From assembly GCA_007751475.1 (NCBI GenBank), contig CP036434.1:2480001-2544000 (forward strand): a stretch of 64,000 nt of DNA, given 5' to 3'. Both the position numbers and the translations under genes were made by a program. Below are positions 9,514 through 23,773 of this stretch, one piece after another. Under the pieces are notes generated by a model. It did not search any database and was not told where the DNA came from. It was given only the letters and a program-made list of their open reading frames with translations. Each line of letters begins with the position of its first letter. Position 1 is the first letter of the stretch. The stretch is from Saltatorellus ferox (GTDB taxonomy: Bacteria > Planctomycetota > UBA1135 > GCA-002686595).

Positions 9514-10676
9514 GGCATCACCTCGGCCAGCGTGCGCCCATGGGCGTCTGCCCACACCGTGATCTGTACTTCGAAACCGAGTCGTCGGCACTCTGGCCGG
9601 TGGAGCAAAGATTGGACCGGGATGACGAGCGCGCCGAGGGGCGTGACCCCCAGCCCGGGGCCCATCGGCCGAGACTCCCTCCGCGGTCCAGGGTCGTGCG
9701 AGAGATCGGTCAGCGCGTTCAGGTGGTGCAGCGGATTCTGCGAGACGCAGAGGCTATTCGGGTCGTGGTCGAGGAGCCCCGACGCATGGGGGTGAGGCTC
9801 GCCGGTGAGCAGCTCGACCTCCAGGCCGCGACCGGTCCAGGCCTGGACGATCGACGCGGCGACCGAAACGGCGACTTCGAACGCTGCGGCGGCGCGCGAG
9901 GACATTCCGCCCGCTCCGCTCGGAAAGCAAAGGATGACGCTCGCGCTGTCGTTCGTGAGTCTCGGGCGTTCGACGGCAGTCCAGCGCGCTCGCCGAAGGC
10001 TGGAGCGCAGATGGAGGTCGCGCACGGAGTCGCCGTGCCTCGCGTCTCGCAGGGAAACCGGTAGACCTTGCCCGCGGGCGAGGTGTCTCTGCGTGGCTTC
10101 GTTCTCCCGGGCGAGCACCTGCCGCAGGACGCGGCGCGCGTCGATGTCGCGGTCCGGCATCAGCCGAGGGAGCGCGATCAAGAGCGCCTCGACCCCGAGC
10201 GAGCGGCTCGCGGTGACGAGACCGAAGGGGTACCCAGAGCTGATGAGGAGCCTGAGGCCCTCCGAGCGCCCGCGAACCGGAACGCGCAGCGGAAGCTCCA
10301 GCGGATAGCCCTCGCGACGGCGCCCGATGGCCGCGATGAGGAGTCGAGGGGCGCGCTCGCGTGATGCGCGGTCATCGCTCGCGCGAACGAGGGCGACCGT
10401 GACGAGTCTTGCCGCTCGCCTGGTGACGAGCCGCGTGCCGACGCCGACCGTCTTTCCAGCATGAACGGTGATCCTGGACGGAGTGTGCACGCGCTCGATG
10501 GCCAGGACCTGCCGGCGCGCGAGCCAGGGCGCCAGAATCAAAACGCTGAGGCCGAAGCTCACCACGAGCCAGGCGAGCTCCATGCCGGCGAGCGCCGCGG
10601 GTGTCGCGCCTATCACGGTGGCGAGGAGGATGCCCATCCCCGCACCGAACGACAGTCGAATGGGCCCCGCCTCCAT
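9510..10676 (-). CDS. DUF58 domain protein
   Basis: 388 residues. Two hydrophobic segments at the N terminus (LLATVIGATPAALAGMELAW and the following stretch to LILAPWL) are followed by an extracytoplasmic-like region. The DUF58 signature is near residue 225: GLPVSLRDARHGDSVRDLHL, then SSLRRARWTAVERP, matching the usual Y..GD..R.I.W..SAR.g pattern. The C-terminal part resembles the von Willebrand-type fold usual after DUF58. It lies directly downstream of the MoxR ATPase and overlaps the transglutaminase start by four bases. MoxR-DUF58-transglutaminase sets are a known conserved arrangement thought to act in envelope protein assembly; the exact role is unknown. Confidence 0.85.
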   Translation of the reverse strand: MEAGPIRLSFGAGMGILLATVIGATPAALAGMELAWLVVSFGLSVLILAPWLARRQVLAIERVHTPSRITVHAGKTVGVGTRLVTRRAARLVTVALVRASDDRASRERAPRLLIAAIGRRREGYPLELPLRVPVRGRSEGLRLLISSGYPFGLVTASRSLGVEALLIALPRLMPDRDIDARRVLRQVLARENEATQRHLARGQGLPVSLRDARHGDSVRDLHLRSSLRRARWTAVERPRLTNDSASVILCFPSGAGGMSSRAAAAFEVAVSVAASIVQAWTGRGLEVELLTGEPHPHASGLLDHDPNSLCVSQNPLHHLNALTDLSHDPGPRRESRPMGPGLGVTPLGALVIPVQSLLHRPECRRLGFEVQITVWADAHGRTLAEVMP

Positions 10677-10690
10677 GGAATCGTGCCGCG

Positions 10691-11821
10691 CTACCGCTCG
10701 ATCGCGCCGTCCCGGGAGAGCCGCGGAACCGGAATCGTTCGGATGATCTGCAGGAGGAGCGAGGCGCTGTCCGATCGGCCGTCGTAGCCTGCTTCGGCCG
10801 GGACGAGGCGGTGGGCCAGTACGGGAACGATCAGCTCGAAGACGTCTTCGGGAATCACGTGGTCGCGCCCTTCCAGAAGAGCGCGGGCCCGCGCTGCGCG
10901 GTCCAGATCGAGGGCTGCGCGGGGACTGACTCCGAGGAGGAAGGGGGACGTGCGGAGGCTTTCGACTTCCTGGTCCAGGTGCGGAGCGCCCGCCGTTCGC
11001 GTCGCCGCGACGAGGTCGAGGAGGTAGTCGAGGATCGGCTCGGCGACCGTGATGTGATCGACGGCGGCCATCGCGTCGCGGATCGCGTCACGGACGGAGG
11101 GCGCCGAGGCGCTGCCGATGAGTGCGTCCAGGGGATCCCGGGAGCGGCGGTCGCGCATCAGCTGGCGCTCCGCGTCGCGATGGGGGTAGCCGGGCGAGAG
11201 GCGCATCATGAAGCGGTCGAGCTGCGACTCCGGCAACGGGAAGGTACCCGCGAACTCGATCGGATTCTGCGTGGCGATCACGAAGAACGGCCATGGGAGA
11301 GGGTGACGCTCCCCTTCGATCGTGACGGCGCGCTCGGCCATGGCTTCCAGCAGCGCCGATTGCGTTCTCGGTGGAGTGCGATTGAGCTCGTCCGCGAGCA
11401 ACAGCTCGCTGAAGACGGGGCCGGGGAGGAAGCGGAAATGCGCCCTTCCACGGCTCGCGTCCGGCGCGGAATCCAGCGCAGGATAGGACGCCCCCGTGAG
11501 GTCCTGTGGCAGGAGGTCCGAGGTCATCTGGATACGCTGGAGGCCGAGCCCGCTCGCGACCGCCAGGGCCTTGGCCAGCGTGGTCTTGCCCGTGCCCGGC
11601 ACGTCCTCCAGGAGCAGGTGCCCGCCTGCGATCAGGCATGTGACGGCGTTGCGGAGAACCTCCTCCTTGCCCTGGATGACCCGGCCCAGGGAGGCCAGCA
11701 ACGGGGCGAGGCGGGCGGGTAGATCGGCCGAGACCTCAGCCGGGAATTTCTTTCCGGGGACCGGACTGTGCTCGGCCACCGGGTGGGTGGGGCTTCCGTC
11801 TGGGGACTCATCAGGCTCCAT
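10691..11821 (-). CDS. MoxR-family AAA+ ATPase
   Basis: 376 residues, with a ~45-residue Pro/Ser-rich N-terminal extension before the AAA core. Walker A is DVPGTGKTTLAKAL (~75). Walker B is LLLADELNRTPPRTQSALLE (~142), the MoxR version. Sensor 1 is VIATQNPIEFAGTFPLPESQ, and the arginine-finger region is LDRFMMRL. The C-terminal lid follows (LGVSPRAALDLDRAARARAL). Acts as a cytosolic chaperone-like ATPase, usually on the VWA or DUF58 proteins encoded beside it. First gene of the three-gene operon; 14 bp separate it from DUF58. The opposite-strand gene at 11959 is divergent, so promoters for both probably lie in 11822-11958. Confidence 0.92.
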   Translation of the reverse strand: MEPDESPDGSPTHPVAEHSPVPGKKFPAEVSADLPARLAPLLASLGRVIQGKEEVLRNAVTCLIAGGHLLLEDVPGTGKTTLAKALAVASGLGLQRIQMTSDLLPQDLTGASYPALDSAPDASRGRAHFRFLPGPVFSELLLADELNRTPPRTQSALLEAMAERAVTIEGERHPLPWPFFVIATQNPIEFAGTFPLPESQLDRFMMRLSPGYPHRDAERQLMRDRRSRDPLDALIGSASAPSVRDAIRDAMAAVDHITVAEPILDYLLDLVAATRTAGAPHLDQEVESLRTSPFLLGVSPRAALDLDRAARARALLEGRDHVIPEDVFELIVPVLAHRLVPAEAGYDGRSDSASLLLQIIRTIPVPRLSRDGAIER

Positions 11822-11958: not shown

Positions 11959-12279
11959 ATGTCGCAGCCTCCTCCTCCCATGAGTTTTCACGATCCAGAA
12001 GCGGACGTTGCCGCTGCCGAGCGGCGTTCCCAGACACGCAATGATTCGGAGCAGCGAGGTCGGATCAGCTTGCAGGCCGGGGATGTGGACGTCCGGGTCG
12101 AGAATGAATCTCCTGCGGGGCTCTTCGTGGTCCTCGATGAGGCGCTGGAGGTGGACGTACGCTGGCAGACCGACGAAGGGGAGCGCCGTTCGCGGGCGCG
12201 ACTGAAGCGTGTGACGACGCTGCCCGGGCAGCAGAGCGGCTGGGGCCTCGAGCTGATTGGCCAGGAGCGGTGCGCGTGA
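11959..12279 (+). CDS. Small PilZ-like protein
   Basis: 106 residues (86 if translation starts at the second ATG, 11980). Polar N terminus, then alternating beta-type segments: RGRISLQAGDVDVRVENES, GLFVVLDEALEVDVRWQTD, RSRARLKRVTTLPGQQSGWG and LELIGQ. The spacing and the WGLELIG ending resemble a PilZ-type beta barrel, but the RxxxR and DxSxxG c-di-GMP motifs are not convincing, so this is a structural resemblance only. Its stop overlaps the GTG of the sensor kinase (GTGA at 12276-12279), which implies translational coupling and a possible role as a partner of that kinase. Confidence 0.7.
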   Translation: MSQPPPPMSFHDPEADVAAAERRSQTRNDSEQRGRISLQAGDVDVRVENESPAGLFVVLDEALEVDVRWQTDEGERRSRARLKRVTTLPGQQSGWGLELIGQERCA

Positions 12280-14474
12280 GCCCGTTCAGATCCGGTGCGG
12301 GGGCAGGCCGCACTCTCAGGCAGCGCATGGTCGTCAGCGTGGTGCTGGGGTCGGCCCTGTTCCTTGGGGTCACCGTGCTGCTGCGCGCCTCCATCCAGGG
12401 GAAGTCGGACTCGCTGGAGGGGGCGGTCCAGGCCAAGCTCGGAGCCGAGGATGGGCTCTTCGAGGTCGAGCGTCAGGTCAGTTCGCTGCATCGTCGTCTG
12501 GCGAAGTGGCGCTCCGAAGCGTACTCGGTCAGCGGGGTCGCGCAGGGGCTCGAGCCTTTCTGGCAGACGCTCCAGGCGAATACGGACCTTCGGCCTGACG
12601 AAACGCTTGCGCTCGTCTCTCCGACGGGCGAGATGTTGGCCGCCGTGGGGCCGCTCGCGAGCGATCCACGCGAACTCAATTCCCTGCTGCGCATCCGCGC
12701 TCTCGTCGGACGAACGGGCTCCGCCGGCCTTCGGTCTGGCATGGTCCTGCCCGGTCCAGAGCCGACGATCGGCGTCTCCGTACCCGTCCACGAGGTCAGC
12801 GCAGGGGAAGGCAACCCCGTGGGCAGTCTCCCCGGCGCCAGCCCGCGCGTCGTGCTCATCAGCTCGTTCGAGTCGCGCGGCGGTAGGATGCGCGACGACG
12901 ACATCGCGCTGACTTTCTACCCGCTCCACGGCGACGGTCTTCCGCCGGAGCTGGCCCACGTTCCGGCCAAGCTCTGGCGTCAGAACGGCATGTTCGAGGA
13001 GCCGTCCGATGACGGCGCCCGATCGTTCCGTGCCGTCGAGGATGCCTCCGAGCGCCCGACGTTCCTCCTGGTCGCCCAGGCACGCCAGCCAGTCTCCGGC
13101 GTCTTCGGACCCGCCATGGGGGACAGCCTCATCTGGGAAGTCCTCGCGATTCTCGTCACGCTTCTCCTGAGCGTCCGGTTCGTGAACCGCGATATCCTCA
13201 AGCCGCTGCTCGGCATGGAGCGCCATGCTTCGAGGCTCGCGCGCACCGAGCATGGCCGCCTCGAGTTTCACTCGCGCGAGGACGGCGAGATCGGTGCGCT
13301 CGCGAGATCTCTCGACGAGATGCTGCACAAGATCCAGGCAGATCGCTCGGAGTTCGTTCGCAGCGCCCGGATCGCCGGCATGTCGGACGTCTCGATGGGC
13401 GTGGTGCATAGCGCTGGCAACATTCTCAATAGCGTCAACGTTTCCACCAAGCTCCTCGCGAAGGAGCTCGGCGAGATCGGGATCAGCGACCTGAGGGCCA
13501 TGATTGCCGAGCTCAAGGATCATCAGGACGACCTCGCCACCTACGTGACCGAAGACCCGAACGGCAAGTTCCTGCTGCCGTTCCTCTTCGCGACCACGGA
13601 AGCGCTCGACGATCTGCGGACGCGCTGTCTCGTGGAGCTCGAGTCCGTCGAGCATGGCGTCGGTCACGTGATCGATCTGATCCGTAGCCAGGAGAAGTAC
13701 GCCATCGGCGCGGCGGTCGTGGAGTCGACCAGCATCGAGGCGGTGATCGATCAGGCGCTGAACATCGCGACGCTTGCGGGTGAAGACGCCAGCGAGATTC
13801 ACATCGAGCGTTCCTACTCCCGTATCGGCGAGGTCTTCATCGACCGCCACAAGCTGACGAGCATCCTGATCAACATCATCTCCAACGCCGTGGAGGCTCT
13901 GAATAGCGCGGACGTCAAGGAGAAGCGGCTAGAGCTCGCGCTCTACCCCATGACCGATGACCGCTTCGTGATCGAAGTGATGGACACCGGCGTGGGGATC
14001 GCGCCGGAGAACCTCGACCTGATCTTCACGGCGGCGTTCTCGACCAAGAAGAACTCCTCCGGTCAGGGACTCCACACGACCGCCAACCTCTGCAAGGAGC
14101 TCGGCATCGCCATCGGGACCGTGAGCGAAGGCGAGGGCTTCGGAAGCGTCTTCAAGCTGCGGGTTCCATATTCGCCCCCGGACGGGATTCAGGAGGCCGG
14201 GCGGGCCGTCGAACCTGGGAGCGGCGCGCACGGCCAAACCGTCGCCGGTGGCGCGGAAGGCAGCGGCCAGGCGCTGGCCGGGCAGGGTCCGTCTTCGGCT
14301 GGCACGCCCGGATCCGCCACCGACGGAACTGCGCTCGAGGATCCGGCCCCGGCGCTGCCCTCGGATTCAGAGGGGGGGTCGGGCCAGATCAGCGAGGAGC
14401 GATCCTGGAGCAGCCACTCGGAGCGAGGGGATCTGTACCGGGACAACAGCTACCGAGATCGGAAGCCGTTCTGA
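12276..14474 (+). CDS. Membrane sensor histidine kinase (HAMP + HATPase)
   Basis: About 732 residues. GTG at 12276 is preferred over GTG 12270 because AGGAG lies eight bases upstream and it forms a GTGA overlap with the previous gene. Transmembrane helix 1 lies at ~15-36. A ~250-residue extracytoplasmic sensor follows, then helix 2 near 285 (LAILVTLLLSVRFV) and HAMP (ILKPLLGMERHASRLA...DGEIGALARSLDEML). The phospho-acceptor region is VSMGVVHSAGNILNSVNVST (His ~376). The ATPase domain has NIISNAVEALNS, DTGVGIAPENLDLIFTAAFS and SGQGLHTTANL. The last ~100 residues are Gly/Ser/Glu-rich and disordered. No response regulator is adjacent. Confidence 0.9.
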   Translation: MSPFRSGAGAGRTLRQRMVVSVVLGSALFLGVTVLLRASIQGKSDSLEGAVQAKLGAEDGLFEVERQVSSLHRRLAKWRSEAYSVSGVAQGLEPFWQTLQANTDLRPDETLALVSPTGEMLAAVGPLASDPRELNSLLRIRALVGRTGSAGLRSGMVLPGPEPTIGVSVPVHEVSAGEGNPVGSLPGASPRVVLISSFESRGGRMRDDDIALTFYPLHGDGLPPELAHVPAKLWRQNGMFEEPSDDGARSFRAVEDASERPTFLLVAQARQPVSGVFGPAMGDSLIWEVLAILVTLLLSVRFVNRDILKPLLGMERHASRLARTEHGRLEFHSREDGEIGALARSLDEMLHKIQADRSEFVRSARIAGMSDVSMGVVHSAGNILNSVNVSTKLLAKELGEIGISDLRAMIAELKDHQDDLATYVTEDPNGKFLLPFLFATTEALDDLRTRCLVELESVEHGVGHVIDLIRSQEKYAIGAAVVESTSIEAVIDQALNIATLAGEDASEIHIERSYSRIGEVFIDRHKLTSILINIISNAVEALNSADVKEKRLELALYPMTDDRFVIEVMDTGVGIAPENLDLIFTAAFSTKKNSSGQGLHTTANLCKELGIAIGTVSEGEGFGSVFKLRVPYSPPDGIQEAGRAVEPGSGAHGQTVAGGAEGSGQALAGQGPSSAGTPGSATDGTALEDPAPALPSDSEGGSGQISEERSWSSHSERGDLYRDNSYRDRKPF

Positions 14475-14547: not shown

Positions 14548-14784
14548 CTACTTGTCGAAGACGTTCGTCTCGCTCGGGCTGATCCGTTCCTCCACGGTCT
14601 CCACCGTCAGGTCCAGCCCCTCCAGGTCGAGGTCCCCCTGGTGATGGTCTCCCGCGGCAAGGCGTTCGCCGGCGGCGTCCTGTCCACTGGCACTCTGCCC
14701 GGCGGCACCCGAGGTCACGTCAGCGGCGCCTGCAGCACGGCCAGCGCCAGAGGCATTCGATTTCTGTTCACGATTCACGGCCAT
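14548..14784 (-). CDS. Small peptide, candidate radical SAM-modified RiPP precursor
   Basis: 78 residues, third gene of the radical SAM operon; its ATG lies 26 bases after the stop of the upstream radical SAM gene, with GGACGAG as a likely ribosome site. The N-terminal two thirds is low-complexity Ala/Gly/Ser/Gln. The C-terminal third is acidic and ordered (DLDLEGLDLTVETVEERISP) and ends SETNVFDK. A small acidic peptide coupled to two cobalamin-type radical SAM enzymes with PqqD-like tails is what a RiPP precursor looks like, with the last ~12 residues as a possible core. I recognise no known precursor family, so the role is inference; it could instead be an unrelated small protein. Confidence 0.55.
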   Translation of the reverse strand: MAVNREQKSNASGAGRAAGAADVTSGAAGQSASGQDAAGERLAAGDHHQGDLDLEGLDLTVETVEERISPSETNVFDK

Positions 14785-14810
14785 GGGATCTCGTCCTGGT
14801 GTTCTGGCGT

Positions 14811-17144
14811 TCAGCGAACGGCGGCGTAGTCCGTCTCGTTCTCGACGCGTAGTGCGCCGAGTCTATGGAGTTCCGCGGCGAACGTCCGGACCTTCTCCAG
14901 CGCTTCCTCGGAGGCGCCGCGGTCGCGGCTCCGCTCCAGCAGCGCGCCGAGGCTTCCTGCGGCCTCCAGCGCCTTCAGCACCTTGAGCCCATCCGGACGC
15001 ACTTCGATGAACTCTCCGTTCTCGGGGTCGTAGAGAAGCACGCGGTCGGTCGGCGGGAGAGGCTTCAGCCTCTCCGCGGCCACGGCCTCGGCGTCCTTCA
15101 CGAAGCGCCCGGTGAGGAAGTCGGGACGAGCCGCGCGCGCCAGCGGATCACCCATCGTCCGGACCGCGTCCGAGTGGCTGAAGGCCAGGGGGACGGAGGC
15201 GAGACCAGGGCTCACGCTGAGTCCGTCCTCCGCGCCGCGCGCCGTCCGTGAGTTCGTTCGATCGATGCAGCGCTCGACGAACTGGTCCGGCGTCGTGCCG
15301 TTCGCCAGGTGGAGGAAGTAGTGGCTCTTCTGCATGAAGTAGAAGATGTTGTCGCCGGAGAAGATCGGGAGGTTGCGCCGGAACGACGCCATCATCTCCT
15401 CGAACATCTCCGCCGCCTCTTCCTGGGTCATGCCGGACTCGCAGACGTAGTCGTGGTAGAGCGCCAGGTCCCCGTCGGCCTCCAGCACGCGGATGCCGAA
15501 CTCGTCCGGCTGCTTGTAGGTCTTCGCGACCTCGTCGATGTGAAAGGTCTGAAGCGAAACCTCGCGCACGATGTCCCGATGCTCCTCCAGGAACCGCAGG
15601 GTTTCGCGCGCCTCTTCGCGGGTCTCCGTCGGGAAGCCGACCATCGCGTAGAACGTCACCGAGATATCCGCTTGCGTGCAGCTCCGTGCGACCTCGACGA
15701 CGGACTTGAGGCTCTGCCCCTTCATCATCAGCTTCAGGAGCCTCTTGACCGACGTCTCGAAGCCGAAGAGCAGCTTCCGGCAGCCCGACTCGTAGAGCCG
15801 CTTCGCGCCCTCGTCGTTGTACGCCTTCGGCTCGATCCGCGCGTCGGCCCACCAGGTGATCCCGGCCTTCGTCTCGATCAGCCTCTCGGGGAGGTCCTGG
15901 ATCATCCCCGGCGGCATGCAGTCGGTGATGAAGTTGAAGTGGGTCGAGCCGTACCGGTCCCGCAGGATCGCGACGTGCTCCGCGATGGTCTCGGCCTTGC
16001 GCGTGCGGTAGCCGGGACCGATGACGGTCGGCAGGGTGCAGAACGTGCACTCGCCGTAGTAGCAGCCGCGGTTCACGTCGTAGGGGATGACGAGATCCGG
16101 CGAGAAGTACTTGTCGAGGGGCAGCCCGTCGAGGTCCGGGGGGGGCGCGGCGTCGAGCTTGATCGGGTGGGCAGGCGTGTTCCGCCTCGACTTCGGGGTA
16201 CCGCTTTCTCTGCGGTCCCACCACGCGAGGCTACCGATCTCACCGAGGTCCGACTCGCCGCGAAGAAGAGCATCGCAAAGCATCGTGAGCGGCCGCTCGC
16301 CCTCGTGAAAGATCATGGAGTCCATGCACTCCGCCATGCCCGGGACCGACATGACCTTCTCGCCGATGTAGGCGAGGAAGCCGCCGCCCATGGTCATGTG
16401 GCACTCCGGCAGCGCCGCCTTCACCATGCGACCCAGCGTGAGCGCGGGGATGAGCTGGCTGCCGTAGAGGACCGAGAGCCCGAGCACGCGTGGTCGCTGC
16501 TCCATGATCCGGGGCAGAATCACGTCGCGATAGAACGCGATGAAGGGGTTTTGCTCCTCGTCCAGCGTCGCCGCGAGCACCTCTTCGGAGCGCTCGTTCG
16601 AGTACGCCATCGTGAAGTTGTGGGGCGTCAGCTCGCTCGGATAGTGCGCCGCGGAGATCAGCCGCAGCCCGTGGTACAGCGTGCGCGTCGCCGGGATGTA
16701 GCGGTCTGGATTCCAGAAGCCGCGCTCGGCCTTGATGGGCGTGTCCTGCCCGCGAAGGACCCGCTTGGCCTCATCGATCCCTGCGATGAGGGCCTCCGCC
16801 GAAACGGTGCTCTCTGCCGCAGCCCGCCACGCACGCATCGACTCGAAGTCGAGTTCGTCGGCCTCGAAGCTCGCGAGCGGGATGCGCTCCTGCACGCGAT
16901 CGCGGGCCGCCTTCAGGGAGGCGGGGGAGAGGAAATGGTCGAACGCCTCGACGGAGAGGTCCATCTGCTCGACGGCTCCGTACCCCGACTGGTGCAACCA
17001 GGCCTTCAGGCAAGGGAGCGCCAGGTGAGGCTGCGTCCAGTGCCCCTGCGGCGGAAACGCGAGCAGGACCGGGAACTCGGCGGCTCCCTCGGGGATCTGG
17101 CGCGGCTCGCCGGCCTGGGTCTTGTCGTCGCTGCGCTGAATCAT
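14811..17144 (-). CDS. B12-binding-type radical SAM protein with PqqD-like C-terminal domain
   Basis: 777 residues. The N-terminal half resembles a cobalamin-binding Rossmann domain (LLAFPPQGHWTQPHLALPCL, RVLGLSVLYGSQLIPALTLG, MTMGGGFLAYIGEKVM). The radical SAM domain starts near residue 355. Its cluster motif reads NRGCYYGECTFC, giving CX4CX2C rather than the usual CX3CX2C; later elements are FNFITDCMPP, WWADARIEPKAY and LLFGFETSVKRLLKLMMKG. The last ~85 residues (VLLYDPENGEFIEVRPDGLK then VLKALEAAGSLGALLE...ELHRLGALRVEN) look like a PqqD/RRE winged helix, which binds RiPP leader peptides. Overlaps the upstream radical SAM gene by ATGA. Likely a peptide-modifying enzyme; the reaction is unknown. 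Confidence 0.85.
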   Translation of the reverse strand: MIQRSDDKTQAGEPRQIPEGAAEFPVLLAFPPQGHWTQPHLALPCLKAWLHQSGYGAVEQMDLSVEAFDHFLSPASLKAARDRVQERIPLASFEADELDFESMRAWRAAAESTVSAEALIAGIDEAKRVLRGQDTPIKAERGFWNPDRYIPATRTLYHGLRLISAAHYPSELTPHNFTMAYSNERSEEVLAATLDEEQNPFIAFYRDVILPRIMEQRPRVLGLSVLYGSQLIPALTLGRMVKAALPECHMTMGGGFLAYIGEKVMSVPGMAECMDSMIFHEGERPLTMLCDALLRGESDLGEIGSLAWWDRRESGTPKSRRNTPAHPIKLDAAPPPDLDGLPLDKYFSPDLVIPYDVNRGCYYGECTFCTLPTVIGPGYRTRKAETIAEHVAILRDRYGSTHFNFITDCMPPGMIQDLPERLIETKAGITWWADARIEPKAYNDEGAKRLYESGCRKLLFGFETSVKRLLKLMMKGQSLKSVVEVARSCTQADISVTFYAMVGFPTETREEARETLRFLEEHRDIVREVSLQTFHIDEVAKTYKQPDEFGIRVLEADGDLALYHDYVCESGMTQEEAAEMFEEMMASFRRNLPIFSGDNIFYFMQKSHYFLHLANGTTPDQFVERCIDRTNSRTARGAEDGLSVSPGLASVPLAFSHSDAVRTMGDPLARAARPDFLTGRFVKDAEAVAAERLKPLPPTDRVLLYDPENGEFIEVRPDGLKVLKALEAAGSLGALLERSRDRGASEEALEKVRTFAAELHRLGALRVENETDYAAVR

Positions 17145-19144
17145 CGGGAAATCGTGTCGCCTGGAACGGTGTAGGAGAGGACGCCGGACTGTACGAGATT
17201 CCGCACGGCATGTTGAGCTTTGTCGGAGGAGAGCATGGCCTCGAGCGCGTCCTGGCTGGCCTCCGGCGCGACGACCGCGTCGATCAGTCGCGTGACGCCG
17301 GAGCCGAGGCGAAGCGTGCGCACCCCGCCGAGCCTTCCGGGTGCGCTCACCGGCGCCGCCACGGCGTAGGTCTGTGGCGCATCGGGCGCAGCGATGGGGG
17401 ATGGCGCGGACGCCGCTTCCACGCGGCGGCCGGCCCGTTCATCGAGGCACCGAGAAAGATGGGCGGTCCACTCGGTCAGCGGGAGCTTCGAAGTGAACAG
17501 CTCGGCGTTGAGCCGGTAGCGACCGGGAACCGCGCGGCGCGCGCCCCTGGCCCCGACGCGAACGAGTGCCGTCTCCCACGCGAGCAGTTCGTCGATGATG
17601 GCCGGCGTCTCCACCGAGCAGGAACGATCGGCGGCGGCGCGCTCCCGGGCAAACGTCTCGAACGTGCGCCCGTCCCGGCGCCAGGCTCTCGCCAGCTCCA
17701 GTGCGCCGCATGAACCATCGGCCATGAGCTGGGCAAAGGTCCGCGGGAAGCGCATGAGGACCTTCGGGAAGTCGAGGCTCAGGAACGTCAGTTCCCGGAG
17801 ACGGTCTTCCTCGTAGGGGAGCAGCGACCAGGTCGAGAACAGGTCGGGATGAGCTTCGATCAGGGCGCGCTCCCGCGCGGAAAGACCCGCTCCCAGCGCC
17901 ATGTCTGGCGGGATGCCTTCGACGGGTCGCGATACGGCGGCGAACTCCTCGCCGAGCGCGCAGCCGGGCTGGGGATTCACGAGATGCAGCGACAGGTTGA
18001 CCCCGGCTCGCAGCGCTGCCGCGGCGCAGAAGGTCAACGATTCGTCGAGCTCTGCGTCGGTCTCGCCGGGGAGCCCGAGGATCAAGGAGAGGATCGGAGT
18101 GATACCCGCCGCGGCGCAGTCGTCCACGACGCCGAGGAGGTCGATCGTCTCGGCCATGCCCTTCTGATTGCGTGCCCGCACGCTCGGCGAGGCGGACTCG
18201 ATCCCCAGCAGCACGCGGTCGCAGCCCGCTCGGCCCATGGCCAGAAGGAGCTCTGCGTCGAGATGGTCCGCGCGCGCGCGGACTTCCCACGGGATCTGGA
18301 TTTGCTCCGCGATCATACGTTCCGTGAACGCCATCGCGTGCTTGCGGTCCGCGCCGAAGATGTCGTGGCACAGGTAGGCGCGCCGGGCGCCGGGGATCCC
18401 GCGGAGTTCGGCGATCTCCTGGACGAGGCGCTCCGGAGGCAGCGGCCGAGAGCGCCGGCTCCACGTTCGGCCGATCGAGCAGAACGAGCAGTCGTAGACG
18501 CAGCCTCGGCCCGAGTCCAGGGGAACGAGCCCGTCTTCCTCGCCGGTGACCGCCTTGTACTCGGTGATCGTGGGAAGCAGGTCCCAGGCGTAGCGCGGGA
18601 GCGTGCCGAGGTCCTGGATCATCGCTCGATCCGGCGTGCGCTTCGGCGTGCCGTCGGGGCCCCTGTAGGTCACGCCGTCCACTTCGAAGGGCGTGTCACG
18701 GCGGCGCAGCGCATCGGCCATCTGGACCACGGTGACCTCGCCTTCACCACGGACGATCCCGTCGATCCACGGGAACCGCTCGAGGATCCAGTGGTCGGTG
18801 CCGTTGACGCCCGGGCCGCCGAGAACGAAGGGCACTCCGGGCCAGAGGGGTCGCAGCTCCCGCGCGATCTCCAGCGCAATGGGGAGGGTGGCGCCCATCA
18901 CGGACAGGCCGAAGAGGTCGGGCTGCCCTCTCGGGAGAAGGTACTTCGCCGCCGACACGGCGAGCTCCTCTCCGCCCGCGATGGCGCCCGTCGCCAGGCG
19001 ATGGGCGAGGTCCTCCAGCGCTGGCTGATGACCGGCGTCGCGCAGAGCGCCGCCAAGTCGCAGGAGCCCGGGGGGCGGCATCGAATAGCCGAACGTATCA
19101 GCGTGGGGTGCGGAGACGAGGAGGATCTTCAAGTGGGGCGGCAA
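17141..19144 (-). CDS. B12-binding-type radical SAM protein (second enzyme of the operon)
   Basis: 667 residues from a TTG at 19144 (a second TTG at 19132 is equally plausible). Cobalamin-binding-like N terminus: ILLVSAPHADTFGYSMPPPG, DLFGLSVMGATLPIALEIAR, FVLGGPGVNG, VRGEGE. The radical SAM motif is canonical: SGRGCVYDCSFCSIGR near residue 215, with later VRARADHLD, CDRVLLGIESASPSVRARNQ and LILGLPGETDAE. The C-terminal ~75 residues (LRLGSGVTRLIDAVV...RNLVQSGVLSYTV) again resemble a small winged-helix, PqqD-like domain. The family covers methyltransferases and other B12-radical chemistry. First gene of the operon, with an ATGA overlap to the next. Confidence 0.85.
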   Translation of the reverse strand: MPPHLKILLVSAPHADTFGYSMPPPGLLRLGGALRDAGHQPALEDLAHRLATGAIAGGEELAVSAAKYLLPRGQPDLFGLSVMGATLPIALEIARELRPLWPGVPFVLGGPGVNGTDHWILERFPWIDGIVRGEGEVTVVQMADALRRRDTPFEVDGVTYRGPDGTPKRTPDRAMIQDLGTLPRYAWDLLPTITEYKAVTGEEDGLVPLDSGRGCVYDCSFCSIGRTWSRRSRPLPPERLVQEIAELRGIPGARRAYLCHDIFGADRKHAMAFTERMIAEQIQIPWEVRARADHLDAELLLAMGRAGCDRVLLGIESASPSVRARNQKGMAETIDLLGVVDDCAAAGITPILSLILGLPGETDAELDESLTFCAAAALRAGVNLSLHLVNPQPGCALGEEFAAVSRPVEGIPPDMALGAGLSARERALIEAHPDLFSTWSLLPYEEDRLRELTFLSLDFPKVLMRFPRTFAQLMADGSCGALELARAWRRDGRTFETFARERAAADRSCSVETPAIIDELLAWETALVRVGARGARRAVPGRYRLNAELFTSKLPLTEWTAHLSRCLDERAGRRVEAASAPSPIAAPDAPQTYAVAAPVSAPGRLGGVRTLRLGSGVTRLIDAVVAPEASQDALEAMLSSDKAQHAVRNLVQSGVLSYTVPGDTISR

Positions 19145-19240
19145 GCAGCAGGAAAGGGGGACCTGGTCCGGGAGGGACCTTCAAGTTCTGCAGGAGCGAA
19201 CGCAGTGGGTGCAGGCGCACCGCGGTTACGATTCCCGTGG

Positions 19241-20863
19241 ATGCTTCAGAAGAGCGCACTTACTCCCGGGGTGGAATACGGCGGCCGGCCCGAAGTGCCT
19301 ACGAAATCGCCAGGTTTTCTCCTGGGCCTTTCGTTCCTTGCCGTGATCGCAGCGCTCCACGTCGTCTGGCTCGTCCTGGAGGGTGTCGGGCCGGTGGACG
19401 ACGACTACATCGTTTACCGCTACGCCCGCCAGTGGCTGGGGACCGGCACGCTCGCTTTCAATGATACGGGGCCGGGAAGCGCCGCCTGGTCGTCCGAGGG
19501 ATTCACGTCGCCGCTCTGGCTTCTCCTCTGCACGCTCGCCGAGGCGCTCGGCGTTCGACCCGGCCTCTGGACGCCCGCGGTCGGGGCCTTCTCGTCGGCG
19601 CTCACCGCAGCTTTCGTCGGACTCGCCGCGCGGCGCGCCTGCCGCCGTGCGGTCGCGGGGGCCCCTGCTCAGGCCAGCGAAACGTGGGGGCTGGCGGCAG
19701 CGGCTCTGATGACGGTTTCCCCGTCGCTTTCCTGGCACGCGGTTTCCGGACTCGGGACGGTGCCGATGGCGGCTGCCGTGGCCGTCGGACTCTGGGCGGC
19801 TAGCGCGCGCCGACCCGCCGCTTTCGGAGCCGCCATGGTGATCGCCGTCTGGTTTCGCATGGAAGCGCTGCTCGTCGCGCTGCCGGTCGGACTCCTCGTG
19901 GCGCAGGGTGGCTCTTGCGACATCGCGTCTGCCCGTGCGAAGCGCTACCTGACGTGGCTCGCGCCGGTGGCCCTCTCCGCGGCCGTTCTCATGCTGCTTC
20001 GGTGGCAGCTCTTCCATCGCTGGCTGCCGGCCACCTACTTCGCCAAGCGGCTCCCGCTCGCCGAGGAGCTCGGCTACGGCGCCCGCTATCTCGTGCGCTC
20101 GACGCTGGAAGGTGGGCTTCCGCTGCTGGGGCTGATCGCCATCGCCGGGATGGGGGATCGGAGGCTCACCCTCTTCGTCCGTGGACTCGGCGTCGTCTCG
20201 CTGCTGGCGCTTTCCTACGTCGTTTCCTGCGGCGGCGACTGGATGGTGTACGGTCGCTTCCTGGTGCCGTTCGCTCCGGCGTTCGTTCTGGGTGCCACCG
20301 GCGTCGTCGCTGGCGCCCACCACCGGGCCGTCCGCTTCGCCGGTGCGACGGCGATGCTGGTGCTCGTGCTCGCGGGTCTGCGGCCCGAGGTTCGCTCGCA
20401 GGCGATCTTCGAGCACCGCTTCTTCGAGGCGTGGTGGCTGCGCGTGGGCGACGAGCTTCGAGCGCGAGCCCCCGAGGACGCGAGCGTGGCGGTCTCGCCG
20501 ATCGGCGCCATCGGCTGGCGCTCGAAGCTCTCGATCATCGACATCCTAGGACTGACGCACGATGCGTTCCTGGACCTCGCGCCGGACCTCGAGGGGGTCG
20601 AGGTCAAGGGGCATCATCGGCACAGCGGGGCGTGGGTGCTGGATCAGGAGCCGACCTACCTGCTCCTCGGCAACGCCGTGGTGCAGCCGGGCGCCGGATC
20701 GCTCGACGTGAATCCCTGGGAGCGCGACATCGTGGCAGACCCGCGATTTCGGCGCGACTACGTGCGGGAGTCCGCCTGGGTCGATGAGCCGGATGGTTCC
20801 CGTCGGCCGTTGCCGTACTTCCGCCGATCGAGCGCGCCGCCCCTCACCAGGGCGTCGAAGTAG
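19241..20863 (+). CDS. GT-C-type membrane glycosyltransferase-like protein
   Basis: 540 residues from the ATG at 19241; the open frame upstream is antisense to the radical SAM gene and not coding. About ten hydrophobic segments. The first extracytoplasmic loop carries VDDDYIVYRYARQWLGTGTL followed by EGFTSPLWLL, the acidic DD motif and downstream pattern of polyprenyl-phosphate-dependent GT-C transferases (AftB/PMT-like arabinosyl or mannosyl transferases). A soluble C-terminal domain of ~140 residues follows the last helix (VAVSPIGAIGWRSKLSIIDI, LGLTHDAFLD). Probably transfers a sugar from a lipid carrier on the outer face of the inner membrane; donor and acceptor cannot be told from the sequence. 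Confidence 0.8.
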   Translation: MLQKSALTPGVEYGGRPEVPTKSPGFLLGLSFLAVIAALHVVWLVLEGVGPVDDDYIVYRYARQWLGTGTLAFNDTGPGSAAWSSEGFTSPLWLLLCTLAEALGVRPGLWTPAVGAFSSALTAAFVGLAARRACRRAVAGAPAQASETWGLAAAALMTVSPSLSWHAVSGLGTVPMAAAVAVGLWAASARRPAAFGAAMVIAVWFRMEALLVALPVGLLVAQGGSCDIASARAKRYLTWLAPVALSAAVLMLLRWQLFHRWLPATYFAKRLPLAEELGYGARYLVRSTLEGGLPLLGLIAIAGMGDRRLTLFVRGLGVVSLLALSYVVSCGGDWMVYGRFLVPFAPAFVLGATGVVAGAHHRAVRFAGATAMLVLVLAGLRPEVRSQAIFEHRFFEAWWLRVGDELRARAPEDASVAVSPIGAIGWRSKLSIIDILGLTHDAFLDLAPDLEGVEVKGHHRHSGAWVLDQEPTYLLLGNAVVQPGAGSLDVNPWERDIVADPRFRRDYVRESAWVDEPDGSRRPLPYFRRSSAPPLTRASK

Positions 20864-20892
20864 GCGAGCGATTCACGGACTCCGGTCTTGGC

Positions 20893-20923
20893 GTAGGGTT
20901 CTGTTAGGGTTACAAAGCCCTAC
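20893..20923 (+). promoter_or_regulatory. Candidate operator upstream of the DNA-repair radical SAM gene
   Basis: Two direct copies of TAGGGTT (20894-20900 and 20905-20911) lie 11 bp apart, about one helical turn, and are bracketed by an inverted pair GTAGGG (20893-20898) and CCCTAC (20918-20923). The element ends one base before the ATG at 20925. The layout suits a repressor site or a 5'-leader hairpin. No known binding motif is recognised. Confidence 0.3.
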
Positions 20924-20924
20924 C

Positions 20925-22256
20925 ATGGCGCAGGACGTTCAGGACAAGCTCAAGATTCTCGCCGATGCGGCGAAGTACGACGCCTCCTGCGCGAGCAGCG
21001 GCGTCAAGCGCTCCAACGGCGGCAAGGGTGTGGGCAACGCGACGGGCTCGGGGATCTGCCACAGCTACACCCCCGACGGTCGCTGCGTTTCGCTCCTGAA
21101 GATCCTGCTCACCAACCGCTGCATCTACGACTGCCGCTACTGCGTGAACCGCGTGTCCAACGACGTGCCGCGGGCCGCCTTCACGGTCGAGGAGGTCGTC
21201 AGGCTCACGATCGAGTTCTACCGGCGGAACTACATCGAGGGGCTCTTCCTGAGTTCCGGCGTGACGATGAGCTCCGATCGCACCATGGATCTGCTCGCCG
21301 AGGTCGCGCGGAAGCTGCGGGAGGAAGAGGACTTCCACGGCTACATCCACCTGAAGGGAGTGGTGGGGGCCTCGACCGAAGCGCTGGAGAAGGCGGGGCG
21401 CTATGCGGATCGCGTCAGTGCGAACATCGAGCTGCCTCTGCAGTCGGACCTCGACCGCCTCGCGCCTGAGAAGTCGATCGACGAGGCGGAGGGAGCGATG
21501 CGATTCCTGAAAGAGGGGATCGACGAGAGTCGCGCTCGCGCGAGCCGTCCGAGCATCCAGTCGACGAACTCGGGGCCGCGTCGACAGAGTCGGCCGCCGC
21601 GCCGTTTCGCGCCCGCCGGGCAGAGCACGCAGATGATCGTCGGGGCGACTCCGTCCAGCGACTCCAGCGTGCTCTCGACGGCGGATCGACTCTACCGCAG
21701 CCATGGCCTTCGGCGGGTCTATTACACCGCCTACAGCCCCATCCCGAATGCGCACCAGGACCTGCCGCTGGAGCCCCGCGTGACGGACTTCGTGGGTGGC
21801 AGTCCCCCTGCACTCGTTCGCGAGCACAGGCTCTACCAGGCCGACTGGCTCCTGCGCTTCTACGGCTTCACGATCGACGAGGTCGTGACCCGAGGCGACG
21901 GCAATCTCGAACTCGAGATCGACCCGAAGATGGCGTGGGCGCTCGCTCACCGGGAGTTCTTTCCGGTCGACGTGAATCGTGCGCCCAGGGAAGCGCTGCT
22001 GCGGGTGCCAGGTCTTGGAACCCGATCGGTCGAGAAGATCCTGAAGGCTCGGGCGAGGCGTAGGCTGCGCGAGGTGGACCTGCGCCAGCTGAGGGCGCCG
22101 ATTCGACGGGTGATGCCCTTCATCGTCGCGGCGGACACCTGGGAGGTCGCGGCCCGGTCGCTGGATGGGGAGGGGCTCGCAGGCGACGTGCGGAAGGACG
22201 GACAGCAGCTGCTTCTGTTCGAAGCAGCGGCCTCTGCGCGTTCGGGGCAGGTCTGA
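20925..22256 (+). CDS. Putative DNA modification/repair radical SAM protein (UDG-linked)
   Basis: 443 residues from the ATG at 20925. The cluster motif is TNRCIYDCRYCVNRVSND (CX3CX2C). Other features are AKYDASCASSG near the N terminus, SGVTMSSDRTMDLL, HLKGVVGASTEALEKAGRYA, SANIELPLQSDLDRLAPEKS and FAPAGQSTQMIVGA. A C-terminal helix-hairpin-helix-like part follows (VDVNRAPREALLRVPGLG TRSVEKIL). This matches the radical SAM family nearly always encoded next to a uracil-DNA glycosylase-type gene (TIGR03916-type), as here with a 2-bp gap. An Arg/Ser-rich insertion sits at ~200-222, just before FAPAGQ. Its exact DNA chemistry is not established. Confidence 0.9.
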   Translation: MAQDVQDKLKILADAAKYDASCASSGVKRSNGGKGVGNATGSGICHSYTPDGRCVSLLKILLTNRCIYDCRYCVNRVSNDVPRAAFTVEEVVRLTIEFYRRNYIEGLFLSSGVTMSSDRTMDLLAEVARKLREEEDFHGYIHLKGVVGASTEALEKAGRYADRVSANIELPLQSDLDRLAPEKSIDEAEGAMRFLKEGIDESRARASRPSIQSTNSGPRRQSRPPRRFAPAGQSTQMIVGATPSSDSSVLSTADRLYRSHGLRRVYYTAYSPIPNAHQDLPLEPRVTDFVGGSPPALVREHRLYQADWLLRFYGFTIDEVVTRGDGNLELEIDPKMAWALAHREFFPVDVNRAPREALLRVPGLGTRSVEKILKARARRRLREVDLRQLRAPIRRVMPFIVAADTWEVAARSLDGEGLAGDVRKDGQQLLLFEAAASARSGQV

Positions 22257-22258
22257 GG

Positions 22259-23773
22259 ATGAGGGGCGCAAGGTCGATTCGGATTGTCCTCGACGGGACC
22301 CTGGATCACTGGCGATCGGTGGTTCGAGGGCTCGTCGCCGAGCACGTGGAGCCGGAGCGAGTGACCTGGTGCGACGGGACGCGGGAGCAGATCGAGCCTA
22401 CCACCGCGGAGGGCGGGCTTTTCGATGGAGCTCCCGGCGTCGGGTCGCTCGTTCCCACCGCCCCCCTCGAAGCTCCCGCGCTTCGACTTCCGCGCGCGTT
22501 CGTCGATAGGCTTCGAGTGGTCCACTGTTTTCGCTCGCCGGAGATGTGGGCTGTCGCCTATCGGCTGCTCTTTCGGATCGTGGACGGCGAGCGTGATCTC
22601 CTCGACGATCCGCTCGACCCCGACGTGGTGTCCTTTCACCGGATGGAGAAGGCGATCCGGAGGGACGCCCACAAGATGCATGCGTTCGTGCGCTTTCGAC
22701 GCGTCGAGTCGGCCGGGGATCGCGGAGGCGAACGCTTCGTGGCGTGGTACGAGCCGTCCCACTTGATCGTTCACCGGGAGGCAGACTTCTTTCGCCGCCG
22801 TTTTCCGTCGATGGACTGGTCGATCCTGACGCCCGATGGGTGCGCGCACTGGGACGGAGCGGAGGTCTCTTTCACGTCGGGCGTTCCGCGTTCGGACGCT
22901 CCGCTGACGGACGAGCTGGAACCTTACTGGTGCACCTACTACGCGTCGATCTTCAATCCGGCGCGGGTGAAGCTGAAGGCCATGACGGCGGAGATGCCGA
23001 AGAAGTTCTGGCACACGCTGCCCGAGACCGCGCAGATCCCCGAGCTGCTCAGCGCCGTTCCGGCGCGGCTCGAGGAGATGCGGCAAACGTCGCGGCGCAC
23101 GGCGGATTCCGCGCTTCCGTTCGTGCCCCAGGGAGTGCCCCAGGGAGTATCCGTCGAAGCGCTTCGCGAGGCCGTCTCTGACTGCGAGGGCTGCGAGCTC
23201 TTCCGCGATCACACGCGGCCGGTGCTCAGCGAGGGGCCCGAGGGCGCAAAGCTGGTCTTGCTGGGTGAGCAGCCTGGTGACATGGAGGAGCGAGCGGGGC
23301 GACCGTTCGTGGGACCGGCGGGGGAGGTCCTGAACGCCGCCCTCGAGGTCGCTCTGGCGGGTTCCGGTCTGTCGCGCGCGGATCTTTACCTGACGAACAC
23401 CGTGAAGCACTTTCGGCACGAGATCGACGTGCGGCCCGGCGAACGAGGCAAGCGGCGCCTGCACAAGCGGCCCACCATCGAGCACGTGTCGCGCTGCCAG
23501 CCCTGGCTGGACGCCGAGATGCTGCGGGTTCGTCCCGAGGTCCTCGTTTGCCTCGGGGTGACGGCGGCGCGAGCGGTCTTCGGGCCTACGTTTCGCTCGC
23601 CTCTCGCGGGCGAGCCGCCCGTCGAACGCAGCTCACGCTACGCGCTCAAGACGGTGGTGACGTTTCACCCGGCCGCGATTCTGCGCGCGACGGCGAGGGC
23701 CGAGGCGGACCGCATGCGCGACCATCTGATCGCTGCGCTCGCTCTGGCGCGCGCGGGGATGGAAGGAGCATGA
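22259..23773 (+). CDS. DUF4130 + UdgX-type uracil-DNA glycosylase fusion
   Basis: 504 residues in two parts. Residues ~1-250 are the TIGR03915/DUF4130-type domain found beside the partner radical SAM protein (IRIVLDGTLDHWRSVVRGL, RRDAHKMHAFVRFRRVES, FVAWYEPSHLIVHRE, WSILTPDG). Residues ~290-504 are a family-4/5-like UDG: GEQPGDMEERAGRPFVGPAG, YLTNTVKHFRHE, GKRRLHKRPT (~397) and VCLGVTAARAVFG. The RRLH loop is the UdgX hallmark; in characterised UdgX this His bonds covalently to the abasic site. A short duplication (PQGVPQGV) lies in the linker. It acts in uracil repair with the upstream gene. Confidence 0.92.
   Translation: MRGARSIRIVLDGTLDHWRSVVRGLVAEHVEPERVTWCDGTREQIEPTTAEGGLFDGAPGVGSLVPTAPLEAPALRLPRAFVDRLRVVHCFRSPEMWAVAYRLLFRIVDGERDLLDDPLDPDVVSFHRMEKAIRRDAHKMHAFVRFRRVESAGDRGGERFVAWYEPSHLIVHREADFFRRRFPSMDWSILTPDGCAHWDGAEVSFTSGVPRSDAPLTDELEPYWCTYYASIFNPARVKLKAMTAEMPKKFWHTLPETAQIPELLSAVPARLEEMRQTSRRTADSALPFVPQGVPQGVSVEALREAVSDCEGCELFRDHTRPVLSEGPEGAKLVLLGEQPGDMEERAGRPFVGPAGEVLNAALEVALAGSGLSRADLYLTNTVKHFRHEIDVRPGERGKRRLHKRPTIEHVSRCQPWLDAEMLRVRPEVLVCLGVTAARAVFGPTFRSPLAGEPPVERSSRYALKTVVTFHPAAILRATARAEADRMRDHLIAALALARAGMEGA

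Follow-up and report, generated by a model that had tools for sequence, protein, structure and literature searches.

The locus described here raises the question as to what two predicted cobalamin-dependent radical S-adenosylmethionine (SAM) enzymes could make out of a peptide of only 78 residues, and whether the product would stay in the cell or leave it. The three genes lie side by side on the minus strand of a 64,000-nucleotide stretch of the planctomycete Saltatorellus ferox (contig CP036434.1, positions 2,480,001 to 2,544,000); this whole stretch is called the window, all coordinates refer to it, and E1 and E2 designate the two enzymes in the order in which they precede the peptide gene. 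A first-pass annotation of the window had proposed a candidate pathway for a ribosomally synthesized and post-translationally modified peptide (RiPP), a proposal now supported by the co-occurrence of the peptide with the enzymes and by the PqqD-like tail of E2. The reading developed below is that a peptide with a nearly fixed tail is probably modified by both enzymes into a small molecule serving the cell as a cofactor or carrier. The peptide gene and its conserved parts are placed as follows:

14548..14784, minus strand: precursor-like peptide, 78 residues (open reading frame (ORF), protein searches)
14590..14631, minus strand: conserved segment LDLEGLDLTVETVE, predicted to be the strand that binds the RiPP recognition element (RRE) (segment from the alignment; binding presumed)
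14551..14589, minus strand: nearly fixed C-terminal core ERISPSETNVFDK (alignment, codon comparison)

A search of 5.8 billion proteins with the peptide gives 97 candidates, of which 74 have E≤1 (counting the window's own peptide), and a profile search finds 571 at E≤10 among 5105 candidates; these 74, together with 88 further ones from the 120 profile matches listed of the 571, make up 162 distinct peptides. Among these listed matches the last 13 residues read ERISPSETNVFDK, every position being identical in at least 158 of the 162, and the strand preceding this core is conserved as L-D-x-x-x-[LM]-D-L-x-[VI]-E-x-V-[ED]; the N-terminal part is free to vary in sequence and length, and tyrosine occurs anywhere in two of the peptides and in the core of none. 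The last ten residues had at first been taken as a possible core; they do lie inside the conserved tail, but the conserved unit is 13 residues long and has the DLx[VI]ExV strand before it.

The 162 peptides were gathered by similarity to the peptide itself, and a sample of 38 loci found through E1 was added as a second view. These loci contain 35 DNA versions and nine protein versions of the 13-residue tail, which is exactly ERISPSETNVFDK in 22 of them and varies as [ED]R[ILV][SANR]P[SRG]ETN[VI]FDK; five positions thus vary while R, P, E, T, N, F, D and K are constant, the pattern used to find the tail having demanded R, P, E, T and N and permitted other residues at F, D and K. A further 26 fetched loci, selected for matches to the peptide or to the enzymes and drawn in part from the same genomes, contain 26 DNA versions that reduce to seven protein versions, and the serine positions of the tail swap between AGY and TCN codons. 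Because synonymous codons vary under nearly fixed residues, selection acts on the tail as protein; this variation and the number of homologues show that the peptide gene is no chance ORF.

An E1 profile, run against a genome collection, gives 74 loci, 44 of which have both E1 (at least 45% identity) and E2. The peptide lies downstream in 38 of these 44, its tail ending 199-368 bases past the E2 match in 37 and 2.1 kb downstream in one (L102). Where it is not seen, the sequence ends inside E2 (L096, L112, L128) or 172 and 221 bases past the E2 match (L099 and L127); in the sixth case (L122, genome G101) the peptide stands on a separate contig from E1-E2, still adjoining a multihaem cytochrome gene. 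Homologues of the enzymes thus do keep company with a peptide sharing the C-terminal pattern, one of the two points on which the first-pass annotation had staked its proposal. The arrangement expected of a RiPP, a ribosomal precursor encoded with its predicted modifying enzymes, is what these 38 loci display, and the peptide is very probably the precursor on which E1 and E2 act.

Among 81 genomes of the window's family, E1 is present in 49 and the peptide in 48, for a total of 52 with one or both; the seven genomes with E1 or the peptide alone are drafts with an estimated completeness of 71-88%. One further peptide match (G035, E=0.005) lacked the tail and lay inside a 773-residue frame, and dropping it brought the count from 49 to 48. 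A single peptide match is found in 46 of the 48 genomes. Across a sample of the phylum the peptide profile matches at E≤0.05 in 15 of 294 genomes; nine matches are strong and extend over the tail, every one of them from the family to which the window belongs, and the other six (E 0.004-0.04) were discarded as chance on their E-values and partial coverage. When 27 E1 and 27 E2 sequences are placed in trees, each of the four genera represented by more than one member forms a monophyletic group in both, as inheritance with the species would predict. The carriers include Pla86 (whose protein is named Engelhardtia mirabilis in the database) and Pla163, both with complete genomes and both presumably isolates; if they are, these cultured carriers would allow the operon to be tested directly.

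The two enzymes and their domains are distributed as follows:

17141..19144, minus strand: E1, predicted cobalamin-dependent radical SAM enzyme, 667 residues, TTG start (ORF, profile matches, fold)
18722..19099, minus strand: E1 B12-binding domain, residues 16-141 (PF02310, E=3.2e-14)
18029..18511, minus strand: E1 radical SAM domain, residues 212-372, with CX3CX2C as C215/C219/C222 (Pfam, alignment)
17168..17374, minus strand: E1 C-terminal RRE-like domain, residues ~591-659 (structure model, profile-profile comparison)
14811..17144, minus strand: E2, predicted cobalamin-dependent radical SAM enzyme, 777 residues (ORF, profile matches, fold)
16287..16526, minus strand: E2 B12-binding domain, residues 207-286 (Pfam match, homologue scan)
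15588..16073, minus strand: E2 radical SAM domain, residues 358-519, with CX4CX2C as C361/C366/C369 (Pfam, alignment)
14844..15047, minus strand: E2 C-terminal PqqD-like RRE domain, residues ~700-767 (Pfam, profile-profile comparison, model)

Radical_SAM and B12-binding domains are matched in both E1 and E2 (Pfam), as the assignment of both to the cobalamin type had implied. The B12-binding match of the window's E2 scores 21.7 bits, under the Pfam cut-off of 32.1, and the same domain is matched at E≤1 in all 50 aligned E2 homologues; the cluster cysteines are invariant, as CX3CX2C in 32 aligned E1 sequences and as CX4CX2C in 50 of E2. The predicted models of the two enzymes are good, with mean pLDDT (predicted local distance difference test) values of 90.6 and 89.3, and their closest matches among solved structures are cobalamin radical SAM enzymes such as TsrM, OxsB, MgmA, TokK and CysS, with AprD4 also present. 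By their domains, three cluster cysteines and modelled fold, E1 and E2 are thus predicted to be cobalamin-dependent radical SAM enzymes. At E≤0.1 there are NCBIfam matches to 23 families for E1, 25 for E2 and none for the peptide, and neither enzyme reaches any NCBIfam cut-off: the best subject of E1 is ApyD (NF050148; 191.2 bits against a cut-off of 750), with rSAM_ocin_1 at 86.8 bits, and the best subject of E2 is rSAM_ocin_1 (TIGR03975; 114.7 bits against 281.85), with ApyD second at 97.5. PADLOC returns only a generic radical SAM likeness (PDC-M51A; 1.6e-10 for E1, 0.006 for E2).

In terms of chemistry, TsrM, MgmA, TokK and CysS are methylases; OxsB and AprD4 carry out chemistry other than methylation. 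C-methylation is the commonest use known to us of cobalamin radical SAM enzymes, and the product of ApyD is beta-methyltyrosine (PMC10635010). Fold neighbours and ApyD together make C-methylation the most likely modification, at about an even chance; ring, crosslink or dehydration chemistry is also possible.

There is also a second system that the first-pass annotation had not mentioned: it is mutually exclusive with the first and has an enzyme-then-peptide layout. E2', a relative of E2 with 34-40% identity that can be aligned over nearly its full length, occurs in genomes of the same family and order that lack E1, and a peptide tail of the form [FY]ED[VMA]ADK accompanies it in all 14 loci of the set L046-L059, as counted with a pattern derived from the first blast-linked pairs. 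The tails read FEDVADK or YEDVADK, with FEDMADK in one locus and FEDAADK in L048, and they end 164-222 bases past the E2' stop in 13 loci; in L049 an E2' ORF at 222-2423 and a peptide match at 52-225 place the peptide directly after the enzyme. The same layout is found in G067 and in G324, a genome from a different family of the phylum, with the tail FEDTADK. The best NCBIfam subject of two E2' proteins is again rSAM_ocin_1 (121.6 and 125.3 bits), and a scan of viral_contigs found no relative of E2'.

Of 16 loci, L198 and L199 among them, 13 have a gene for a relative of the FG-GAP/UnbV protein of L050 immediately ahead of E2' in the same orientation; in L056, L057 and L059 the nearest such relative is located beyond the peptide, and a different gene stands before E2' (TPR/FG-GAP by Pfam in L057).

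The sister peptide profile is found in 24 of the 81 family genomes, none of them with E1 or the first peptide. The two systems jointly cover 76 of the 81 genomes with zero overlap, and neither is seen in G029, G035, G075, G084 or G097; mutual exclusivity has P = 5e-16, a figure that ignores the relatedness of the genomes and is not a true probability. A profile comparison of the two peptide families as homologues found nothing (0.6%), and the V-x-D-K end common to both is an observation and no proof of a shared origin.

The first-pass annotation had also described a small winged-helix-like end in both enzymes, PqqD/RRE-like in the second, and this description holds well for E2 and with weaker profile support for E1. 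In both models the C-terminus runs strand-strand-helix-helix-helix (residues 700-767 of E2, ~591-659 of E1); the end of E2 is modelled as two strands, three helices and one strand, and that of E1 as two strands and three helices with a last strand of merely two residues. RREs consist of three helices and a three-stranded sheet, a make-up close to both enzyme ends, and they bind precursor leaders (PMC10635010). The profile-profile comparison took as reference the PqqD domains of planctomycete genomes (25 of 30 fetched loci aligned, five left out), and the E2' ends were aligned from 13 of the 14 loci (L049 left out); the probability against PqqD is 96.2% for the E2 end, 98.3% for the E2' end and 70.4% for the E1 end, and that of the E1 end against the E2' end is 94.3%. 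Column-shuffled PqqD controls score no higher than 5.1%, and 0.6% is the maximum for other parts of the enzymes. The Foldseek and VIA-align matches of E2 cover residues about 22-635, and the fold matches are thus uninformative on its RRE end. On profile and model evidence, the presence of an RRE domain at the end of E2 can be regarded as settled, and one at the end of E1 is likely.

Instead of being a substrate, the peptide could be a docking or regulatory subunit, with another molecule as the true substrate of the enzymes. In L048 (G028, one draft genome), E2' runs at its C-terminus in frame into the last ~24 residues of the sister peptide, whose N-terminal part is missing, an arrangement that would be tolerable for a permanent subunit, and a nearly invariant tail would also suit a binding surface. 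Fused precursors are however known in borosins, the RRE-like ends present in both enzymes are of a type known for binding peptide substrates, and conservation reaches the very last residue of the peptide; a docking role thus appears quite unlikely.

If the peptide is instead the substrate, its path may be sketched as follows. The leader segment LDLEGLDLTVETVEE is the part predicted to bind the C-terminal domains of E1 and E2, and LDLxxLDL[TS]VETVEE would join the RRE sheet as one more strand. The two enzymes would then act in turn on R-I-x-P-x-E-T-N-V-F-D-K, transferring a methyl group to an unactivated carbon, with RISPSETNVFDK as the stretch of the tail expected to carry it. A general peptidase encoded elsewhere would free the product, which may be kept inside the cell.

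Whether the product stays in the cell is precisely where a secreted RiPP would differ: the modified tail could be an antibiotic or a signal, exported by a general system encoded elsewhere. Secreted antibiotics usually diversify, whereas the core here is nearly fixed, mostly single copy and follows genera, and one of the two systems is present in 76 of 81 genomes. The absence of an adjacent transporter or protease, as first described, holds for a Pfam scan of seven neighbouring genes of the window, in which no transporter or peptidase was recognised; five of the genes were matched and two were not (9510-10676 and 19241-20863). A secreted product is nevertheless in keeping with the combination of an RRE, a radical SAM enzyme and a small peptide, a known RiPP layout (PMC10635010), and with a gene order and overlap that suit co-production. 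Taken together, the nearly fixed tail, the single copy in most genomes, the failure to recognise any export gene and a near-universal, exclusive distribution speak for a cofactor or carrier that works inside the cell and against a secreted antibiotic, which we consider unlikely.

A fixed C-terminus would be expected of carrier peptides too. The peptide could thus be a carrier or scaffold as in the pearlin pathways, its tail holding the product or being extended before the product is cut off, and a carrier-peptide pathway has been published (PMC9303977). Neither a peptide ligase nor another extending enzyme is seen in the operon or among the identified conserved neighbours, however, which makes this scheme improbable.

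The preferred reading, modification of the tail into a molecule used inside the cell, has to face a number of observations that weigh against it. In 16 of the 38 E1-found loci the tail departs at one to three of its five variable positions, in L064 and L109 the strand ahead of it deviates from the consensus, and two genomes of 48 (G010 and G086) have two peptide matches. At the level of the RREs, the E1 end reaches only 70.4% against PqqD and only 36.2% against the E2 end, Pfam PqqD is matched at E≤1 in just seven of 50 E2 members and in none of 32 E1 members, and the window's own E2 scores 16.0 bits against PqqD (PF05402), below the curated 23.4, with no match for E1. OxsB and AprD4 rank about equal to the methylases by fold, so methylation is not the sole option; a peptide that docks to the enzymes and stays unmodified is also conceivable. 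Neither a dedicated peptidase nor a product-using enzyme was found.

A firm functional link is also missing on the side of the neighbourhood. A multihaem cytochrome c554-like gene follows the peptide on the same strand, at 17-722 bases, in 16 of the 38 peptide-bearing named loci, and a 17th stands at 2805 bases; beyond it, several loci have a VWA gene and the nuo operon of complex I. As a functional partner the cytochrome was rejected: none of the nine genomes in the genus of the window gives a match to it at E≤1e-20, and it occurs in 50 of the 81 family genomes, many of them without the peptide, so that the link is not tight. As an observation in its own right, the cassette followed by a same-strand c554-like cytochrome and nuo is found in L075, L076, L079, L081, L083, L094, L103-L106, L115, L119 and L130.

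Taken separately, the cofactor-like role of the product, as we read its distribution, falls somewhat short of an even chance. The fullest form of the proposal, a new ribosomally made cofactor with two exclusive precursor families (...ETNVFDK and ...[FY]EDVADK) and sister RRE-tailed B12 enzymes as a near-universal trait of the family, is possible but doubtful. A near-constant core and the presence of one of two forms in 76 of 81 family genomes point to a basic cellular need, one that is described nowhere as far as searched, and two cobalamin radical enzymes would gain a defined likely peptide substrate.

In the window, the three ORFs lie on the minus strand where they had been placed from the start, as a three-gene operon. 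E1 and E2 share an ATGA overlap (17141-17144), and the peptide ATG follows the E2 stop by 26 bases with AGGA in between, both features of the first-pass annotation that can be seen in the sequence. Two further elements belong to this layout:

14794..14797, minus strand: AGGA, possible ribosome site of the peptide gene, 9 bases ahead of its ATG (sequence)
19145..19240, no strand assigned: gap between E1 and a divergent gene, likely site of the operon promoter (sequence)

This gap contains no promoter matching the sigma-70 consensus. With a divergent ORF upstream and a convergent histidine kinase gene (12270-14474) downstream, the operon apparently consists of exactly three genes in this genome. 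Further afield in the window, a radical SAM/HHH gene followed by a DUF4130 and uracil-DNA glycosylase fusion (20784-23773) is probably a DNA repair pair, and one run on the minus strand (7429-11821) comprises a Transglutaminase/TgpA-like gene, a gene without Pfam match and a MoxR-like ATPase gene. The same genome (G000:C1) has further radical SAM genes that lie close together in pairs, at 694805/695914, 1538250/1539938, 3421555/3422405 and 5749840/5750991.

To our knowledge, peptide-derived cofactors are very few, pyrroloquinoline quinone (PQQ) and mycofactocin being the ones known to us. In the PQQ pathway (PqqA/PqqD/PqqE), a PqqD-like domain and a radical SAM enzyme work on a small peptide, much as is proposed for this operon, and the core of PqqA contains a conserved Glu and Tyr joined by a Glu-Tyr crosslink. 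By comparison, the enzymes here are of the B12 type and the core has no Tyr, so that a PQQ-style crosslink cannot form in the tail. In the mycofactocin system (MftA/MftB/MftC) the PqqD-like binding function is that of MftB; here, two cobalamin-type radical SAM enzymes have built-in RREs, the core has neither Tyr nor Cys, and no glycosyltransferase, peptidase or nicotinoprotein partner is seen in the operon. Mycofactocin models are absent from the NCBIfam matches of the peptide, E1 and E2 at E≤0.1, the models being assumed to be present in the library. The rSAM_ocin_1 RiPP C-methyltransferases resemble E2 as its best NCBIfam subject and differ from it in that E2 scores below their cut-off of 281.85 bits and has a CX4CX2C spacing, the cysteine spacing of rSAM_ocin_1 being longer. 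As is predicted for E1 and E2, ApyD of the aminopyruvatide pathway is a cobalamin radical SAM enzyme that contains an RRE and has a RiPP precursor as its substrate (PMC10635010), whereas the scores here lie far under 750 bits, the substrate Tyr is absent and the operon has no P450, MNIO or second methyltransferase.

Neither peptide tail occurs in the text of 5.39 million open papers, and the peptide has no match to Pfam, NCBIfam or PADLOC models, in agreement with the initial statement that no described precursor family with such an ending was known; in the literature joining planctomycetes, RiPPs and radical SAM enzymes, including the accessible part of PMC9902471, no such pathway is seen. 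With a core that hardly varies, inheritance that follows the genus, one copy in most genomes and neither a transporter nor a peptidase recognised nearby, the system looks more like mycofactocin or PQQ than like a bacteriocin, and the argument used here resembles the one that led Haft in 2011 to predict an electron-carrier role for mycofactocin (PMC3023750). As far as checked, the system is thus of a known kind, that of RRE-guided radical SAM RiPPs, and new in its precursor pair, its double RRE-tailed B12 enzymes and its exclusive distribution; if the reading is true, its product would be a peptide cofactor comparable to the PQQ and mycofactocin of other bacteria.

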